From NCBI GenBank assembly GCA_946407195.1, contig CAMJNC010000006.1, forward strand, positions 1 through 35,111: a DNA stretch of 35,111 bases, read 5' to 3'. Of the stretch, positions 1 to 8,108 are shown in pieces (the stretch's first letter is position 1; every line of letters begins with the position of its first letter). The notes under the pieces are model-generated. The model saw only the letters and a list, made by a program, of their open reading frames with translations, did not search any database and was not told where the DNA came from. Source of the stretch: an uncultured Treponema sp. Its GTDB lineage: Bacteria > Spirochaetota > Spirochaetia > Treponematales > Treponemataceae. Made by a program: the position numbers and the translations under genes.

Positions 1-851
1 ATTTTTTGTTTTATTTCTTTTGAAACCTTTTTAAGTTTCTGTTCATCACTTGCTACCAAGAGTTCTGAACCTTTTCTATTTGCAATAGAATTTACTGTAT
101 ATGATAGAGTAAACTCATATTGTTTAAATTCTTTGTAAATCTCAGATATCGCAGGAACATTATCGTATGTTAATAACCATGGAGTCTTTATTTTAGTAAT
201 CTCTTTAAAAATTTTTAAATGATCTTCTTTTTCTAAGAAATTCGTATAAAGTTTTTTACCCTTAACAAAATACGGAGGATCAAAATAAGTAAATATTTTT
301 TTCTTCTTTTTTTCAACTTGCTTTATAAACTCTAGAATATCAAAATTGTATATTGCAATGTTAGAAGAATTTTCAGCAACTGTTTCAATCTTTTTTATTA
401 AATCTTCTTTATTAAATCTGGCAGTAATCAAATTAGTTCCAGTCTGATTATAACCACCTATAGGTCCAGCATTTAATACGCCAGAAAAATTCGTTCTATT
501 AAGAAAGAAAGTTGCAAACCCAAGTTCTAGGGAAGGCTCCTTTTCATTTTCATATATTTGCTTTTGGATCAGGTAATTATCAATATTGACTTCTGTATCA
601 TTCAATAACCTAAGAAAATCTTCTGTATCATTACATATAGAATTCCAGAAAGAATAAACTCCTGTATTAATATCATTAATAATTATTTTTTTTATTCTCT
701 TATTTTCTAACAGCTTTAACGCAATACTTGCTCCACCTGCAAAAGGTTCTACATACGTATCGACAGTATCACCATATTGAGAAATAATAGATTCTACCAA
801 ACTGTATAATTTCGATTTCCCACCAGGATATCGAAGTGGAGAATTGTTCAA
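1..851 (-). CDS. D12-class adenine-specific DNA methyltransferase (Dam type), 3' end beyond window
   Basis: Transfers a methyl group from S-adenosylmethionine to the N6 of adenine in duplex DNA. The N-terminal SAM-binding motif reads SPLRYPGGKSKL (about residues 4-15), followed by YVEPFAGGASIALKLL and, near residue 190, the catalytic motif in TYFDPPYF. These are the hallmarks of the D12/Dam class. The C-terminus is cut by the window edge and no stop codon is seen. No ATG lies near the family N-terminus. I chose the TTG at 851, giving MNNSPLRYPGG, because AAGGGG lies 9 nt upstream; a second TTG is at 857. The frame stays open upstream to ATGs at 965 and 971, but that extension (hydrophobic, AT-rich) has no family counterpart. 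No restriction endonuclease is visible, so it may be an orphan methylase or half of a system continuing outside the window. Family confident, specificity unknown. Confidence 0.9.
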   Translation of the reverse strand, partial: MNNSPLRYPGGKSKLYSLVESIISQYGDTVDTYVEPFAGGASIALKLLENKRIKKIIINDINTGVYSFWNSICNDTEDFLRLLNDTEVNIDNYLIQKQIYENEKEPSLELGFATFFLNRTNFSGVLNAGPIGGYNQTGTNLITARFNKEDLIKKIETVAENSSNIAIYNFDILEFIKQVEKKKKKIFTYFDPPYFVKGKKLYTNFLEKEDHLKIFKEITKIKTPWLLTYDNVPAISEIYKEFKQYEFTLSYTVNSIANRKGSELLVASDEQKLKKVSKEIKQK

Positions 852-995
852 AATCAAATACCCCTTTACAATATTATAAATAAAAAGAAAGCATATATCT
901 ATAATAATGAGCCTTTCATAATTGTTTTTTTTGTTTCTATATGAATAACAAGAACTATTCTCCATATGCATCTCTTCATGAAGTATTATAGTTTC

Positions 996-1018
996 ATTAT
1001 AAAGGTTATAAGTGCCAA
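996..1018 (-). promoter_or_regulatory. Promoter-like TTGGCAC / TATAAT pair upstream of the methyltransferase
   Basis: On the minus strand TTGGCAC (1018-1012) is followed by a perfect TATAAT (1001-996). The distance from TTGGCA to TATAAT is 11 nt, too short for a normal -35/-10 pair, so TTGGCAC may be an operator rather than a -35 box. The same arrangement with a nearly identical spacer occurs upstream of the gene at 1429-2127. TATAAT itself is a good -10. Confidence 0.5.
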
Positions 1019-1029
1019 ATAATGACACT
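1011..1029. promoter_or_regulatory. Dyad AGTGCC-N7-GACACT, candidate operator
   Basis: The imperfect dyad AGTGCC AAATAAT GACACT sits just upstream of the -10 box at 996-1001. A near-identical element with the same 7-nt spacing lies in front of the WYL regulator gene (6470-6488), suggesting a common binding protein. This is an inference from two sites only. Confidence 0.4.
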
Positions 1030-1428: not shown

Positions 1429-2127
1429 CTATTCCTCCAATAAAAATGGTTCATCTAAATATTCATTGAACTTATTCCGGAACTTTTTGAATAAACGCTG
1501 GAACTGCAAAAGCTCTGCTTCCCAGCCCATTTCTACTGCATTGTATTTCTTCAGATCCTCTTTGTAGCCTTCCATTGATACGGTAAGAATATTCGAACCT
1601 TCAAATTTCATATTTCCGAATCTGAAAGTTTCTACTGCTCCATCACAGATAGTGGGATTCGAAATATCTCTTGAGATTTTTCTCAGTTCTTCTTTGTTTT
1701 CTTTTATAAGCTTCTTGATTTCTTTTACAAGTTCTGGACTATTCAGCAGGATGAATTCTTCATCATCGAACATACGGTCTTCTGGTCCTAATCTGGAATA
1801 AGCATATTCATATCGGACCAATCTGCCATCTTCCAGAAGCACAATTGCATAACTGTTTCCAAAAAAAGCAGCACAATCATATTCAAAAATAATTTTTGGA
1901 AGTTTTTTACAGGAATCCAGGATTTTGAGAGGGTCGCTCTTTTCATCAAGTTTTACAGTTTTTCCATCTGTCAGGATGATTTGCGGAAGACCGACTACAG
2001 AGTGGACTTTATATCCGCCTGTATAAACTTCGAAATTATTAAGCATTCCCTGGAAATGAACTGTATCAAAGCCATTTCGTTTTGCGAAATCTAATGCTAT
2101 CTTTCTAAACTCTGGTCGTGTTTTCAT
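1429..2127 (-). CDS. Hypothetical protein, 232 aa
   Basis: Unrecognised. The sequence is soluble with no signal peptide or membrane helices. The first half is beta-rich (for example FEVYTGGYKVHSVVGLPQII and NSYAIVLLEDGRLVRYEYAY), followed by a charged helix around residues 135-155 (KEIKKLIKENKEELRK) and a C-terminal helical part. I start at the ATG at 2127, preceded by a strong GGAGGTG, rather than at the in-frame ATG at 2190, which would add a segment encoded by the promoter region. A TATAAT box lies about 31 nt upstream. First gene of a two-gene operon with the 79-aa protein downstream. Lineage-restricted accessory gene is my best guess. Confidence 0.75.
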   Translation of the reverse strand: MKTRPEFRKIALDFAKRNGFDTVHFQGMLNNFEVYTGGYKVHSVVGLPQIILTDGKTVKLDEKSDPLKILDSCKKLPKIIFEYDCAAFFGNSYAIVLLEDGRLVRYEYAYSRLGPEDRMFDDEEFILLNSPELVKEIKKLIKENKEELRKISRDISNPTICDGAVETFRFGNMKFEGSNILTVSMEGYKEDLKKYNAVEMGWEAELLQFQRLFKKFRNKFNEYLDEPFLLEE

Positions 2128-2157: not shown

Positions 2158-2180
2158 ATTATAAAGGTCAAGGGTGCCAA
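2158..2180 (-). promoter_or_regulatory. Promoter-like TTGGCAC / TATAAT pair for the 1429-2127 gene
   Basis: TTGGCAC (2180-2174) and TATAAT (2163-2158) on the minus strand, again 11 nt apart, with the shared spacer end ACCTT. The twin of the element at 996-1018. The start codon at 2127 is about 31 nt downstream with its own Shine-Dalgarno sequence. Confidence 0.5.
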
Positions 2181-2215
2181 GGAACGGCATTGTGAAATAA
2201 TTTTATTTTAGTCTC

Positions 2216-2508: not shown

Positions 2509-3735
2509 TTACCACCCCATCGCAAGCAGCCACAATGGAATTGCTTTATCTGCCGGGTAGTCTGTATTATCGCGAATTACCAAATCGGACTGTTTAAGTA
2601 CCTTATCCTTACCGCCTACTTCAATTTTGATTTTTGGCGAGTTTCCGAGATTAAGAGTGCCGGTATTTTTCATAATTACAAAATCTCCATCAGTTTCGTT
2701 CTTACATGCATTTACAGTGTAGCCTGATTCCTGCAGTAAAACAGTGACAAAGGCCTCCCGCATATTTCCGGCACTTCCTTGTAAAACAGAATACAAGCAC
2801 GGATCTGCAAAGAAAAGTTTTGCCCCGGCACTTTTTGCCTTTGTGTCATTTGGATAGCGGATAATACGAACAACGCCAACTGCTTCCATAACTTCTAAAA
2901 GCTGATAAAGCTTATCGGCACTCACATTCCAGTCTGCACATAAAGAGCGAACCTGGAGTCGCGGAATTGATGACATTGAAAGAGATCCTACAACTGCACT
3001 CATCAGGCGAATATTATCCTCGGTAATCTGAGGAACAAAAAATGGTACATCAGAATTAAGAGTCTTATCCAGGACAGCCAGACTTCGGCTCTCATAATCA
3101 CCTTCTGTATAGAACGGACGAGTTCCATAAGTCTTATATTTTTCAAACAAATCAAGAATAGAAGCTTCCGGCTTTACAGGCAGAGAATCTCCCTTTTTCA
3201 TTTTAAAAGGATTTATTGTATTATAGACTTCTCCTGTCTCGATATACAAAAACTCTCGGAACGACATAATCGGCATATGAACAAAAACATAACGTCGCGA
3301 AAGGTCTGCTGTTCCACTTCTTAAAACTAAAGCGGAAGAATCACTTGCCCAAACATATCGGTCTGGATAATCATCATACAAAGATTTTAACTGAGCGCTC
3401 CAGTTCCTGGCAAAATGAACTTCATCAATTATTACACCTTCATACCCCTGCATAAAAACAGCCGCAATAACATCATAAAGATTAAGAGCAGTCAGACGCG
3501 GATTATCCGCAGAAAAATAAAGCATCTTTTTGCCACTCTGGTTTGCATGATGCAAAAGAAAGGTTGATTTTCCTATTCCCCGCAAACCAGTAAGAATCAT
3601 ATTTTTTGGAAGTTTATTTTTTGAGTTAAATTCAGTTGTCCAAAGACGAATTCGCTGAGGCATAGCAGCAAGCTTGCGCTCCATAATCGTCTTTAAATTT
3701 TCAATGAGTTCTAAAAGATTTTCTGTGTTATCCAT
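2509..3735 (-). CDS. AAA ATPase, AAA_14/DUF4143 type
   Basis: Predicted ATP-dependent DNA-associated or effector ATPase of the widespread AAA_14 plus DUF4143 family; its cellular role is not established. Walker A is GLRGIGKST (residues 50-58), Walker B is GVIIDEVH (100-107), and the family block DSSALVLRSGTADLSRRY follows near 132-149, then the typical MSFREFL. The C-terminal part has a winged-helix-like region and a nuclease-fold-like end with D-x-x-IMK and IEVGGKDK, compatible with a degenerate PD-(D/E)xK core. Length (408 aa) fits the family. The ATG at 3735 has no Shine-Dalgarno sequence; TTGACA stands 17 nt from TACCAT, itself 6 nt from the ATG, so translation may be leaderless. A concentric dyad lies upstream. 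Confidence 0.8.
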   Translation of the reverse strand: MDNTENLLELIENLKTIMERKLAAMPQRIRLWTTEFNSKNKLPKNMILTGLRGIGKSTFLLHHANQSGKKMLYFSADNPRLTALNLYDVIAAVFMQGYEGVIIDEVHFARNWSAQLKSLYDDYPDRYVWASDSSALVLRSGTADLSRRYVFVHMPIMSFREFLYIETGEVYNTINPFKMKKGDSLPVKPEASILDLFEKYKTYGTRPFYTEGDYESRSLAVLDKTLNSDVPFFVPQITEDNIRLMSAVVGSLSMSSIPRLQVRSLCADWNVSADKLYQLLEVMEAVGVVRIIRYPNDTKAKSAGAKLFFADPCLYSVLQGSAGNMREAFVTVLLQESGYTVNACKNETDGDFVIMKNTGTLNLGNSPKIKIEVGGKDKVLKQSDLVIRDNTDYPADKAIPLWLLAMGW

Positions 3736-3845: not shown

Positions 3846-4046
3846 TTATTCTTCCAGACTTTCGCCGTGCTGTTCTTCTATTTCGGCGATTTCGGTCTGG
3901 AGGGTTTTGTCCAGGGCTTCGTCGAAGCCGGTGAGGGCGGCAAAGGGTAAAAAGATTTTGGCGCGCTGAGAAAGGGGCATGCGGTTGGGCAGGGAGTCGC
4001 GGGTCCAGTTGTGGTTTATGATATCGTCGTAGTTTTTCTCGTTCAT
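3846..4046 (-). CDS. Small Y-family polymerase partner (YolD-like, UmuD analogue?), 66 aa
   Basis: The protein has the signature YDDIINHNW...MPLSQRAKIFLPFAALTGFDEAL, found in short proteins encoded beside UvrX-type Y-family polymerases in Firmicutes. Such YolD-like proteins have been proposed to act like UmuD as polymerase partners; that link is family knowledge plus inference. The acidic tail (EIAEIEEQHGESLEE) is helical. I start at ATG 4046 (MNEKNYDD). The longer frame to 4091 only translates the palindromic repeat (WLSLSKPP) and is not credible. It lies 46 nt downstream of the polymerase gene stop, in the same operon, with the repeat in between. Shine-Dalgarno is weak. Confidence 0.7.
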   Translation of the reverse strand: MNEKNYDDIINHNWTRDSLPNRMPLSQRAKIFLPFAALTGFDEALDKTLQTEIAEIEEQHGESLEE

Positions 4047-4059
4047 GGTCGTCTCACAT

Positions 4060-4084
4060 GGTGGTTTCGACAGGCTCAACCACC
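4060..4084. repeat. Palindromic repeat, short variant
   Basis: GGTGGTT (4060-4066) and AACCACC (4078-4084) form the stem around TCGACAGGCTC. Same outer arms as the copies at 28124, 29565 and 29631 but without the inner stem. It fills the gap between the polymerase gene and the small partner gene, where it could form a hairpin in the mRNA. Confidence 0.75.
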
Positions 4085-4092
4085 GCAGCAAT

Positions 4093-5478
4093 TTAAGCTT
4101 TGTGGCCTCCTATCTGGACGTTGCGGTCGCGGGTGGTGGCGCCTTCTTCGAAATTAGTTCCCTTGAGGATGGCATTCTTGCCGTACTTTCTGATTATCTC
4201 AAGGCGGGCTTTCTGCAGGCTGTCTTCCTTGTGCTGACTTGTGCCGCCCTCCTCTGTTTCCACTTCGTCAAAGAGGCCCGGCTGTCTCTGGCTTGCATTT
4301 TTGATATTGTTTGCGGTGATATTGATGCGGCGGTAGAGCCAGGCGGGTTTTGCTATCTTTTCGAAAATTGAAACAAAGCCTTCAACTATCTGCTTTGAAG
4401 AATTGGTTTCGTCTCCAAAGCTCCAGCTGCCGTGGGCGGGCTTTGGCATTTCGCGGCCGTAATAGTCGCGCACTACTTCGCCGTCGAAGCCGGGAACATA
4501 AAGGCTTTCCTGGTCGTAACCGGCGTGGAGGGTAATTGAATCTGTAACAAGATTTTTCTTATAGAGGTCCAGGGCTAAAAGCTCGGCCATTTCGCGCACT
4601 ATGATTTTTGCCTTTTCGTAATCGTAAGGCTCGTGAAGCACCTGGCCGCTTCCAAGGCTCTTTGCTTCTGACTTGTAATTTTTGATATCTTTCATGCCCA
4701 CTGGCTCTATGCCCCAGGCATGATCTATCAGAATCTCTGCATCAATTCCAAACTCCTTATACAAAAGCTCGGGGTTCTGCAAGGAGGTGCGGGCTATGTC
4801 TCCCATTGTGCGGATAAAATATTTTTCGAGCCGGCGGGCTGTTGCGCGGCCTACCCTCCAGAAATCTGTAAGCGGCTGATGGGTCCAGAGCTGGCGGCGG
4901 AAGCCTTCAACGTCCAGCTCTGCTATGCGAACTCCGTCCTGATCTGCGGGAATATGCTTTGCAACAATATCCATGGCGGCCTTACACAAAAAAAGATTTG
5001 GCGCGATTCCGGCTGTGGCTGTGATTCCGGTTTCTGCAAGTACCTCGCGAATTACCTTTACGGCAAGCTCGCGGGCTGTCAGCTTATAAAAAGAAAGATA
5101 GCTTGTGGCGTCTATAAAAACTTCATCTATCGAATAAACGTGAATATCTTCGGGCGCAAAGTAACGAAGGTAAACATTATAGATTCGTGTGGAATACTGA
5201 ATGTAAAGGGCCATACGGGGAACTGCAACTATGTAGTCCAGTTCTTTGCCGGTCTGGCGTTTGATTTCGCGGGCCTTGGCTTCTACCTCGAAAAGGCGGG
5301 AGCGGCCGCTGAGCCCGTAGGCTTTGAGCGCGGGTGTAACGGCCAGGCAGATGGTTTTGCTGGTGCGGCTTTTGTCGGCAACTACGAGGCGCGTTGTAAG
5401 CGGATCTAAGAGGCGTTCGCGGCATTCAACTGAGGCGTAGAAGGATTTGAGGTCAATGGCGATGTAGGTTCGCTCCAT
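4093..5478 (-). CDS. Y-family DNA polymerase (UvrX/DinB-UmuC type)
   Basis: Error-prone polymerase that copies past damaged template bases. Catalytic metal ligands are visible as D9 (YIAIDLKSFYASVE) and D118/E119 (VYSIDEVF). The palm/fingers region, a helix-hairpin-helix thumb (FWRVGRATARRLEKYF, about residues 205-220) and a little-finger domain follow. The protein ends with GTNFEEGATTRDRN and QIGGHKA, the characteristic C-terminus of the Firmicutes-type polymerases; it carries a possible clamp-binding motif QPGLFDE near 405. At 461 aa it is full length. ATG 5478 begins 1 nt after the stop of the WYL regulator, so the two are translationally linked. It differs clearly from the UmuC encoded on the other side of the regulator. 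Confidence 0.92.
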   Translation of the reverse strand: MERTYIAIDLKSFYASVECRERLLDPLTTRLVVADKSRTSKTICLAVTPALKAYGLSGRSRLFEVEAKAREIKRQTGKELDYIVAVPRMALYIQYSTRIYNVYLRYFAPEDIHVYSIDEVFIDATSYLSFYKLTARELAVKVIREVLAETGITATAGIAPNLFLCKAAMDIVAKHIPADQDGVRIAELDVEGFRRQLWTHQPLTDFWRVGRATARRLEKYFIRTMGDIARTSLQNPELLYKEFGIDAEILIDHAWGIEPVGMKDIKNYKSEAKSLGSGQVLHEPYDYEKAKIIVREMAELLALDLYKKNLVTDSITLHAGYDQESLYVPGFDGEVVRDYYGREMPKPAHGSWSFGDETNSSKQIVEGFVSIFEKIAKPAWLYRRINITANNIKNASQRQPGLFDEVETEEGGTSQHKEDSLQKARLEIIRKYGKNAILKGTNFEEGATTRDRNVQIGGHKA

Positions 5479-5479
5479 T

Positions 5480-6460
5480 TTATTTCAGCCTCTTCGCCAT
5501 CTTTTTTACTTCATCAGCATAAAGTTTTTTCAGCTCGGGAGGATTGAGCACTGTAACGGCCGCGCCAAAACGCAGGCACCAGAAGAGAGTTTCCTGTATC
5601 TGATTTGACTCAAAACTAAGGGAAACGGTGCCGTCTTTATTCTGTTTGCACTTCTGATTTTTATGCCAGGTTCTTTCGAGGATATAGGTGTTGATGGATT
5701 TATCGAAAAGAAGTTCAATTTTCTGCGGCCTGGTTTCGTTGTTCCAGATTCCAAAGTTAGGATCTATATGAACCTTCTGCTGATAATTTTTGTCGTATTT
5801 AAACTCAGCTCCAAGCTCAATGTTTTTCATTCGGGCAAGGGTAAAGGTTGCAAACTTTTCGTGCTTTGGTGAATAGCCCAGAATATACCAGTCGCCTTTC
5901 TGATTATAAATCTTATACGGATAAAGCTCGTGCGGAACATAATCTGTTGCCTTTATTGAACGATAATCAAACTTCATGATTTTATGAAGCTTGGTTGCCT
6001 TAAAAACATCATTAAAAGTTTCTTCTGCAATAACCGGAATGGGGTCTGCAATAAACTCTACGTCGTTTGTAAAACTGGACTGCACTTCTACCTGATTCGG
6101 AAGCATCTGCGACAGTGTGTCATAAACCTTTTCTATTGTCTTTTTAAGCGGAGTATTATTATAGCGTTCCATCAAAGGAAGGATTCCTGTTACTGCAAAC
6201 ACTTCGCTTTCTGTAAGCATCATGTTCTTTACAAAATAAGTGTTGTCGCTGTAATAGTAGCCCTTGCGCATACGGTCATATTCAATGGGCGCGTTGTAAT
6301 AGATTTTGAGTTCATCAATATCGCGAAGGATTGTGCGGCGGGAAACTTCCAGCTCCTTCATGAGTCGTTCAACACTAGGGTATCCCAGATTCTGGATAGC
6401 CTGCTCAATCTTAAATAATCTTAATGGTTTTGTGTGATTTTCCCTGATTTTTGCACTCAT
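5480..6460 (-). CDS. HTH/WYL-domain transcriptional regulator
   Basis: Predicted DNA-binding regulator. Residues about 12-65 form a DeoR-type helix-turn-helix (SVERLMKELEVSRRTILRDIDELK) and the middle to C-terminal part is a WYL domain, with the namesake motif as GDWYILGY and following FTLARMKNIE. WYL proteins often bind single-stranded or damaged nucleic acid and control DNA repair or defence genes (for example PafBC). It heads an operon with the polymerase at 4093-5478 and faces the umuD/umuC-like pair, so control of both mutasomes is the natural inference. A textbook promoter TTGACA-N17-TATAGT lies at 6524-6496, and a dyad (6470-6488) covers the leader, consistent with autoregulation. Confidence 0.88.
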   Translation of the reverse strand: MSAKIRENHTKPLRLFKIEQAIQNLGYPSVERLMKELEVSRRTILRDIDELKIYYNAPIEYDRMRKGYYYSDNTYFVKNMMLTESEVFAVTGILPLMERYNNTPLKKTIEKVYDTLSQMLPNQVEVQSSFTNDVEFIADPIPVIAEETFNDVFKATKLHKIMKFDYRSIKATDYVPHELYPYKIYNQKGDWYILGYSPKHEKFATFTLARMKNIELGAEFKYDKNYQQKVHIDPNFGIWNNETRPQKIELLFDKSINTYILERTWHKNQKCKQNKDGTVSLSFESNQIQETLFWCLRFGAAVTVLNPPELKKLYADEVKKMAKRLK

Positions 6461-6469
6461 AATTTTTTC

Positions 6470-6488
6470 AGTGCCTTTCTATGACACC
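6470..6488. promoter_or_regulatory. Dyad AGTGCC-N7-GACACC in the WYL gene leader
   Basis: Lies 10-28 nt upstream of the WYL gene start, between promoter and ATG, overlapping its weak ribosome-binding site. Shares 11 of 12 arm positions and the 7-nt spacing with 1011-1029. Good position for a repressor. Confidence 0.45.
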
Positions 6489-6492
6489 TAAA

Positions 6493-6540
6493 ACTACTAT
6501 ACTTTAATACAGAATAACTGTCAAACATTTTTATAGTAGT
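6493..6540. promoter_or_regulatory. Inverted repeat ACTACTATA ... TATAGTAGT in the divergent control region
   Basis: Perfect 9-bp arms at 6493-6501 and 6532-6540, 30 nt apart. The left arm contains the -10 box of the WYL promoter; the right arm abuts the Shine-Dalgarno of the umuD-like gene. Either a pair of symmetrical -10 elements or the half-sites of one operator. Confidence 0.5.
6496..6524 (-). promoter_or_regulatory. Sigma-70 promoter of the WYL/polymerase operon
   Basis: TTGACA (6524-6519), 17-nt spacer, TATAGT (6501-6496) on the minus strand. Best sigma-70 match in the window; expected start about 6489, giving a leader of roughly 29 nt that contains the dyad at 6470-6488. Confidence 0.75.
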
Positions 6541-6549
6541 GAGGTAATT

Positions 6550-6855
6550 ATGATTACAGGATTTCCAAGCCCGGCGCAGGGTTATGAACAGCATCAGATT
6601 GATTTTAACTCATACATCATTAAGCATCCTTCTGCAACTGTGGTTATGCGGATTGAAAGCTCGCACTACACTAACATGGGAATTTATTCTGGGGATCTGA
6701 TTGTTATTGACCGCGCCAAAAAGATAAACCGCAATTCTCTTGTGGTTTACGAATCGGAAGGGCATTTTGTTCTGGGAAGGGTTTACACCATAAGGTGTGA
6801 AACAATTATCACGGGCGCCATAACTCATGTGCTGCATACGGTAAAAGATTTATGA
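6550..6855 (+). CDS. umuD: UmuD'-like protein lacking the cleavable arm and the catalytic dyad
   Basis: Partner subunit of the UmuC polymerase (Pol V). E. coli UmuD is cut between C24 and G25 to give active UmuD'. This 101-aa protein begins MITGFPSPA, so its G4 aligns with G25. The alignment continues without gaps over IDFN, HPSATVV and SGDLIVID. The catalytic Ser60 position is His39 (SSHYTNMG instead of GDSMIDGG) and the Lys97 position is Gly76 (HFVLGRV). No upstream start exists: the in-frame stop at 6505 leaves only 14 codons without ATG, GTG or TTG. GAGG lies 5 nt before the ATG. It overlaps umuC by 4 nt. It therefore appears to be made directly in the processed form and cannot self-cleave. 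Confidence 0.85.
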   Translation: MITGFPSPAQGYEQHQIDFNSYIIKHPSATVVMRIESSHYTNMGIYSGDLIVIDRAKKINRNSLVVYESEGHFVLGRVYTIRCETIITGAITHVLHTVKDL

Positions 6856-8108
6856 TTTTACATGCTGATGGAAATGCTTTTTTCGCTTCCTGCGAGCAGA
6901 TTTATCGGCCGGATCTTCGTGGAAAGCCAGTGGCTGTTCTTTCTAATAATGATGGAATTATTGTCGCGCTGAATAAAGAAGCAAAGGCCTGTGGCATAAA
7001 ACGCGGCGACCCGTACTTTAAGGTAAGGAACATCTGCGACTATAAGGGTGTTACAATTTTTTCGAGCAACTACACTTTGTATGCTGATATCAGCCGGCGC
7101 ATTACCTCCATTTATATGGAATATGCCCCGGATATTGAATGCTACTCCATCGATGAATCTTTTTTATTTTTTGATGACTGCAACTGGAGTATTTCTGATT
7201 ACGAAGAAATTGGCCGGGAACTGAAAGACCGTGTTTACAGGGAAGTTGGCATTCCTATTTGCGTTGGTGCCGGCCCTACAAAAACTCTGGCAAAGCTTTA
7301 CAACAAAAAAGCAAAGGAGCATGACGGCGTTTTTGTATATAATCCGGATTCAGTAGACGCGCTGCTTGCGGAAACGGACTGTGCAACCATCTGGGGAATT
7401 GGCCCGGCACGTGCAAAAAAGCTTGAGCTTCATGGAATTAAAAATGCGCTGATGCTTAAGCACATGCCGCTGTGCGACGCAAAAAGACTTCTTACCTCAC
7501 AAGGCTTTGAAACTGTTATGGAGCTGAACGGCAAGCGCTGTATGGATAAAATCACCCGTCAGAAAAAAGACATAATTACTTCGAGCCGTCAGTTTTCAAA
7601 AAAGGTTTATGACCTTGCAACGCTTGAATGCGCCCTTGTTGAATACACGGAACTTGCCGTAGAAAAACTTCGTAAACAGAACTCGGAATGTAAGATGATT
7701 CAGATCTGCATTTCCACCTGCAACTATTATTCTGATAATCCGGATGAGCAGTATTCAAACGCAGCCTTTGCAGAGCTTCCGCGCCTCACCTCTTACACTC
7801 CGGATTTAGTAAATGCTGCCCGGCTGATTCTCCCTTACATATACCGCCAGGGCTACGGCTACAAAGTAATTATGGTTTCGCTGTTAGACATTATGCCCGC
7901 ACAGTATCAGGGCTGGCTTTGGATAGACCCCAAAGAAGACATAAAAAAACGAAGGCTCATGGAAGCAGTAGACCAGATAACAAACAGCTACGGCCGCCGC
8001 TCCATCACCCTTGCAAAATTCTGGACTAAAACCGGCTGGGAAATGAAACGCGAATTTTTAAGCCCAAACTTTACTACAGACATAAACTGTGCGCCGTGTG
8101 TTTTGTAA
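6852..8108 (+). CDS. umuC: UmuC, DNA polymerase V catalytic subunit
   Basis: Y-family translesion polymerase of the proteobacterial UmuC type. Metal-binding residues are D6 (HADGNAFFASCE) and D101/E102 (CYSIDESF), the same numbers as in E. coli UmuC. The thumb helix-hairpin-helix is TIWGIGPARAKKLELHG (about 180-196), followed by the little finger (SSRQFSKKV) and the C-terminal segment with YGRRSITLAKF. The length of 418 aa is typical. It overlaps the umuD-like gene by ATGA, giving tight translational coupling. The gene downstream is convergent, so this operon has two genes only. Together with the polymerase at 4093-5478 the island encodes two different translesion polymerases. Confidence 0.95.
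   Translation: MILHADGNAFFASCEQIYRPDLRGKPVAVLSNNDGIIVALNKEAKACGIKRGDPYFKVRNICDYKGVTIFSSNYTLYADISRRITSIYMEYAPDIECYSIDESFLFFDDCNWSISDYEEIGRELKDRVYREVGIPICVGAGPTKTLAKLYNKKAKEHDGVFVYNPDSVDALLAETDCATIWGIGPARAKKLELHGIKNALMLKHMPLCDAKRLLTSQGFETVMELNGKRCMDKITRQKKDIITSSRQFSKKVYDLATLECALVEYTELAVEKLRKQNSECKMIQICISTCNYYSDNPDEQYSNAAFAELPRLTSYTPDLVNAARLILPYIYRQGYGYKVIMVSLLDIMPAQYQGWLWIDPKEDIKKRRLMEAVDQITNSYGRRSITLAKFWTKTGWEMKREFLSPNFTTDINCAPCVL

Follow-up and report, generated by a model that had tools for sequence, protein, structure and literature searches.

The WYL regulator and the umuD'C genes

A Treponema draft genome (2.73 Mb in 293 contigs, 75% complete) includes, as its contig C6, a stretch of 35,111 nucleotides, here called the window, which carries five genes set around a transcription factor with a WYL domain. 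Records from rumen and gut Treponema, including Treponema bryantii, served for comparison. A check of open reading frames and coordinates confirms five genes in two divergent groups, 89 bp apart (6461-6549), as pointed out in a preliminary description of the DNA. On the minus strand lie the WYL gene (5480-6460), a gene for a Y-family polymerase, probably of the YqjW/UvrX type (4093-5478), and one for a small protein of 66 amino acids (aa; 3846-4046). The WYL stop codon and the polymerase start are 1 nt apart, and the three genes constitute one operon. On the plus strand, facing away, are genes for a UmuD'-like protein (6550-6855) and for UmuC, the catalytic subunit of a Pol V-type polymerase (6852-8108), which overlap by 4 nt.

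By Pfam the WYL protein consists of HTH_11, WYL and WCX domains. It is DriD-like: the nearest solved structures are those of DriD by fold, and of DriD and PafBC by profile. With the model of the WYL protein as query, Foldseek returns DriD structures at ranks 1-10, including complexes of DriD with single-stranded DNA (ssDNA), the best at 1e-14. The C-domain aligns with DriD over 200 residues (Z 17.4, root mean square deviation 4.4). A profile of the WYL clade gives DriD at 2e-18; PafBC scores as well, and both are far above BrxR and CapW.

The alignment of the UmuD'-like protein with Escherichia coli UmuD' begins at the first residue past the cleavage site (GFPSPA). Catalytic Ser and Lys are lacking in this protein and in every aligned ortholog of the genus. 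It has neither the Ser-Lys dyad nor the cleavable N-terminal arm of an autoproteolytic UmuD, and its NCBIfam score of 73 bits is under the 110-bit cut-off. UmuC, recognized by Pfam, NCBIfam and motifs, has IMS domains, a DUF4113 tail and the catalytic Asp/Glu, and scores 301 bits with PRK03609, under the cut-off of 431. It is 91% identical to UmuC of Treponema sp. C6A8, with which it forms a single branch in the tree (support 88/99). E. coli Pol V (UmuD'2C) likewise pairs UmuC with UmuD' (PMC6511836), but the window UmuD' is encoded pre-shortened and lacks the protease residues. As the protein would be made already 'cleaved', RecA-driven UmuD processing should not be needed, and control would therefore fall on transcription.

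The palindromic box and its recurrence in Treponema

Which part of the gap could serve such control? When the gap is aligned with the corresponding sequences of C6A8, T. bryantii, G116 and G011, the conserved remainder is AGTGYCA-N5-TGRCACT at 6470-6488. The window copy is a 19-bp palindrome, AGTGCCTTTCTATGACACC, that is non-random by dinucleotide shuffles of the gap (P 0.0005). On the basis of alignment, shuffles and spacing, this palindrome, here called the box, is the proposed binding site of the WYL protein. The umuD'C promoter has the -10 hexamer TATACT (6498-6503, plus strand) exactly 9 nt past the palindrome, and this is kept in T. bryantii, G116 and G011. In G011, umuD' is distant from the WYL gene and retains the box, the 9 nt and TATACT.

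The promoter that the preliminary description had placed in the gap is confirmed as that of the WYL-polymerase operon (6496-6524, minus strand): TTGACA (6524-6519), N17 and TATAGT (6501-6496), with 11/12 matches. Its -10 element shares 4 bp with that of umuD', and the WYL start point would land on or beside the box; RNA polymerase could therefore hardly use both promoters, and from this overlap mutual exclusion of the operons is expected rather than mutual induction. T. bryantii has about 32 bp extra between box and WYL and a separate -10 near WYL, both lacking in the window. A 9-bp inverted repeat, ACTACTATA / TATAGTAGT (6493-6540), was also described before and is present, with arms at 6493-6501 and 6532-6540, the left one coinciding with the overlapping -10s. 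Its significance did not hold up: 4% of dinucleotide shuffles give a repeat as long and the right arm is not conserved, and the repeat is rejected as an operator.

A scan of genome contigs with the WYL protein as query gave 21 loci of the WYL clade. A box lies within 200 bp of 11 of these 21 promoters, with 0.02 expected. None is found at the promoters of distant WYL paralogs, the sole hit in that set (L227) being a clade fragment. Box promoters (n=36) were oriented by the downstream gene and the -10 was scored at no fewer than 5/6 matches. The distance from box to -10 is exactly 9 nt in 26 of them and 10 nt in six more, every other offset occurring 0-2 times. Some of the 36 loci are near copies, yet the 9-nt spacers are highly varied in sequence. 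A 17-bp spacer would place the -35 element in the middle of the box. Of 12 WYL loci with a box, eight have the -10 towards the divergent gene and two towards WYL.

A promoter model trained on non-translesion targets only matches 4/19 umuD' promoters (window, C6A8, T. bryantii and G011) versus 2/325 background sequences, and one of these two is a third box of the window (2173-2191). The model also matches the Y-polymerase promoters of G005 and G055, which have the box, 9 nt and TATAAT. Across the genus, intergenic boxes with at most one mismatch precede genes for HsdM (type I restriction-modification), D12 and C5 methyltransferases, JetA of Wadjet, PtuA of Septu and an SMEK/ABC-3C protein; further genes behind such boxes encode candidate defence ATPases and small membrane proteins.

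Conservation of the five-gene block across spirochetes, which the preliminary description had raised, is not borne out. Among 98 relatives searched for co-location of WYL, Y-polymerase and umuD'C, none has the block outside the source genome; the three modules lie far apart or on separate contigs, and the block is rejected as a conserved unit. Parts of it do recur. An intact umuD'C stands divergent to the WYL gene in C6A8; T. bryantii B25 and G116 have the divergent pair with umuD'C decayed, and in one metagenome-assembled genome a Y-polymerase gene takes the divergent position. In Treponema sp. JC4, WYL and umuC are tail to tail. In G016 the divergent gene encodes DUF72, a family that has been noted next to damage-response genes. 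UmuC/UmuD', Y-polymerase or DUF72 adjoins WYL in 5/21 clade loci (the window excluded) versus 0/37 distant WYL paralogs, and this comparison of gene neighbourhoods supports a tie between the WYL gene and translesion genes beyond chance.

DUF72 was considered as a regulon member and rejected: the G016 box lies between DUF72 and WYL, but on its DUF72 side no -10 stands at 9 nt. Other families of the order (L166-L169) have DUF72 next to a Y-family (ImuB-like) gene, followed in some by a DnaE-like gene, and in the place that imuA has in other cassettes.

Elsewhere in the genus another regulator usually faces umuD'C, namely an XRE-S24 protein, divergent from umuD'C in 9/13 loci. In the aligned XRE-S24 proteins Ser, Lys and the Ala-Gly cleavage site are all present, and several of the umuD' promoters facing them carry a dyad. 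Both the divergent arrangement and the dyad at the umuD' promoter resemble the HdiR-type XRE-S24 with umuC of Streptococcaceae (PMC8565304). The source genome differs in that no XRE-S24 autocleavable repressor is found in it, and WYL occupies the place facing umuD'C. An exchange of regulators, from XRE-S24 repressor to WYL protein, may have taken place in the source lineage.

A proposed DriD-like activator and its alternatives

How might the WYL protein act on the box? The evidence leans slightly towards a DriD-type activator that would switch on umuD'C and defence genes via the 19-bp site. ssDNA from damage, stalled forks or phage would bind the WYL domain, and the WYL dimer would sit on the palindrome at 6470-6488, which would stand in for a -35 element. 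RNA polymerase would then be recruited to the -10 at 6498-6503 and umuD'C switched on, while the WYL-polymerase operon would be excluded or self-repressed, with no joint induction. The unit of box, 9 nt and -10 would bring restriction-modification and other defence genes into the same regulon.

DriD is the WYL activator of the SOS-independent damage response of Caulobacter crescentus. It has a 20-bp pseudo-palindrome in a bidirectional promoter, does not activate itself, and its site has the -35 at its centre and keeps a constant spacing to the -10 (PMC12340889). The window protein shares with it the architecture of winged helix-turn-helix, WYL and WCX and has DriD among its nearest structures, and the target gene is divergent. 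The site is likewise a pseudo-palindrome of about 20 bp in a bidirectional promoter, centred on the -35 with a fixed -10 distance, a likeness in geometry. The targets differ, being umuD'C and restriction-modification or other defence genes here and didA, bapE, recJ and dnaG in DriD. SiwR of Mycobacterium smegmatis, active under genotoxic stress, is also a WYL activator divergent from its target operon, with a 19-bp imperfect palindrome between regulator and target (PMC10693628), but it targets DinB/YfiT metalloenzymes, not polymerases.

A wider claim is more tentative, its probability falling a little short of even: that one DriD-like WYL activator runs a damage- or phage-triggered Treponema regulon in which translesion polymerases are joined by defence genes (restriction-modification, Wadjet, Septu and others), and that it took over from an autocleavable repressor the control of a Pol V with a UmuD' that needs no cleavage. 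Mutagenesis and phage defence may then be switched by one signal in rumen Treponema. If true, this would be a spirochaete damage circuit outside LexA that links mutagenesis to anti-phage defence, and restriction-modification genes and a Pol V would join the targets of DriD-type control, which is known from a few bacteria. It would also represent a natural exchange of an autocleavable repressor for an ssDNA-type activator around a processing-free UmuD', and the promoter unit (box, 9 nt, -10) could be searched for and mutated.

Several observations weigh against the activator. The structure model of the WYL protein is middling (pLDDT 76, pTM 0.48), and the steps of binding, ssDNA sensing, activation and timing are predicted from sequence. 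At no more than one mismatch, box and reversed control number 73 versus 73 outside the genomes that have a WYL-clade gene. The ratio of forward to control counts does not differ significantly between genomes with the gene and other genomes (Fisher 0.15), and the box excess in genomes with the gene is clear in the first genome set only and weak in the second. Forward and reversed control counts were alike at up to two mismatches, and genome-wide box enrichment was therefore rejected as a proof that the regulon is large. A box precedes a methyltransferase gene in G042 (98% complete; L203) and in G022 (L259). Neither a relative of the window WYL nor a small XRE protein was detected in these two genomes, so that another protein may bind boxes there. 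In 11/31 box loci, all 11 of them defence loci (L179, L182, L184, L194-L196, L246, L248, L250, L254 and L255), the box is preceded by a small XRE gene, whose end lies 4-23 nt away.

Does the box then belong to another regulator, such as the small XRE, with WYL and umuD'C merely among the targets? The nearness of small XRE genes and the boxes in genomes without a window-type WYL speak for this. The number of boxes per genome, however, tracks the WYL clade, at 2.0 with a WYL-clade gene versus 0.95 without (Mann-Whitney 2e-4; 0.002 excluding WYL and umuD' boxes), and shows no difference for a control pattern or for small XRE (p 0.26). At most WYL loci the box lies between WYL and the divergent gene, and G042 has neither protein. 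A small XRE as box binder is not favoured, and another owner of the box is on the whole unlikely. Less improbable, though still rather doubtful, is that the WYL protein is a repressor of the BrxR/CapW type, blocking umuD'C and defence genes at the box until released by a phage or damage ligand. BrxR and CapW are WYL regulators of defence genes, and the genes behind boxes, mostly restriction-modification and other defence, are their usual company (PMC9122601, PMC9122588). In the BrxR box, too, a 5-bp spacer separates the arms of an inverted repeat (11 bp each there, 7 bp in the window box), CapW sites are palindromes of 19-24 bp, and RNA polymerase could also be blocked from a site at about -40 to -22. 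CapW sites cover the -10, whereas the box stands 9-10 nt upstream of it (9 nt in the window) and, as in DriD, substitutes for the -35. BrxR and CapW, both repressors, are also less similar than DriD to the window protein in sequence and fold.

The preliminary description had read the locus as a LexA-independent damage module in which WYL co-induces both divergent polymerase operons. Its link between WYL and translesion genes and its regulatory site in the shared region are upheld, the latter as a conserved box; its joint control is not. One conserved site in 89 bp flanked by both operons, the 1-nt gap that makes a single WYL-polymerase transcript likely, and the same element at the Y-polymerase promoters of G005 and G055 would suit co-induction. 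Yet the box faces umuD'C only, the WYL start would be on or next to it, the -10s overlap, the block is unseen elsewhere, the two parts differ in GC content, and the genome has LexA. Joint induction is quite improbable. The LexA encoded in the source genome looks functional, with Ser, Lys and the VAAG cleavage site present, so LexA control of some genes of the block is possible; a search from the source genome's own recA and lexA promoters gave no usable LexA box, and the literature on Treponema LexA and umuC yielded nothing useful. Such control of umuD'C would also fit a chance neighbourhood of three unrelated modules in a variable island, each under its own control. All three modules are found apart in relatives. 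GC content is 51% in the Y-polymerase and small genes versus 40-45% in WYL and umuD'C, and a palindrome like a repetitive extragenic palindromic (REP) element, GGTTGAGCCTGTCGAAACC (4063-4081, minus strand), lies between Y-polymerase and small gene. The WYL/umuD'C pair, on the other hand, recurs with a conserved promoter, and translesion-linked genes adjoin clade loci and none of the paralogs. For the locus as a whole chance is very unlikely; it is a fair account of the Y-polymerase part, not of WYL-umuD'C. By its GC content the Y-polymerase with its small gene looks like a later addition to the WYL operon, in the window only, and it would be transcribed from the WYL promoter.

The Y-polymerase pair and the left end of the window

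The Y-polymerase has IMS and IMS_C domains, intact catalytic motifs, the clamp motif QPGLF and the tail QIGGHKA. Its best NCBIfam match is PRK03103, at 168 bits and under the cut-off of 381. A Y-family core and a small operon partner are present, as in the YqjW/UvrX type. The preliminary description had called this partner YolD-like. The pairing is kept across the genus, but the YolD identity falls away, as no Pfam model is matched by the 66-aa protein and YolD (PF08863) by 0/20 of its orthologs. These are 60-89 aa long and are conserved in YDDII...RAKIFLPFAALTGY only. The Bacillus YqjW/UvrX and YolD mutasome is thus similar in the pairing of a Y-polymerase with a small protein (PMC6511836) and different in the nature of that protein. 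In most relatives the two genes overlap where the window has a gap with the REP-like palindrome.

A third Y polymerase, of the DinB type, sits on a different contig of the source genome. At G000:C73:4028-9109 (minus strand; L126) a 1693-aa open frame has an N-terminal DinB-type polymerase and is otherwise without a Pfam match. Many genomes of the genus have frames that share this head and are about 1400-2080 aa long.

The left end of the window resembles a defence island. A perfect copy of the palindrome (1011-1029, minus strand) stands 9 nt before TATAAT, upstream of a gene for a D12-class N6-adenine DNA methyltransferase (3-974, minus strand; PADLOC PD-Lambda-5_B / MTase_II), whose start codon is unsure and which reaches the contig edge. 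The third copy, AATGCCGTTCCTTGGCACC (2173-2191, minus strand), is also 9 nt before TATAAT and precedes a gene for a 232-aa protein with no assigned function (about 1429-2127, minus strand). These two genes are candidates for the WYL regulon. The start of the longest frame of the 232-aa protein (MPFLGTLDLYN) is translated promoter, and the likely start is 2127. An AAA_14/DUF4143-like ATPase (PADLOC PDC-S01) is encoded at 2509-3735 on the minus strand, and a relative in G049 has an upstream box (L260). At L263, L264, L271 and L253, small single-pass membrane proteins are encoded behind the box, 9 nt and -10, several of them divergent from WYL.

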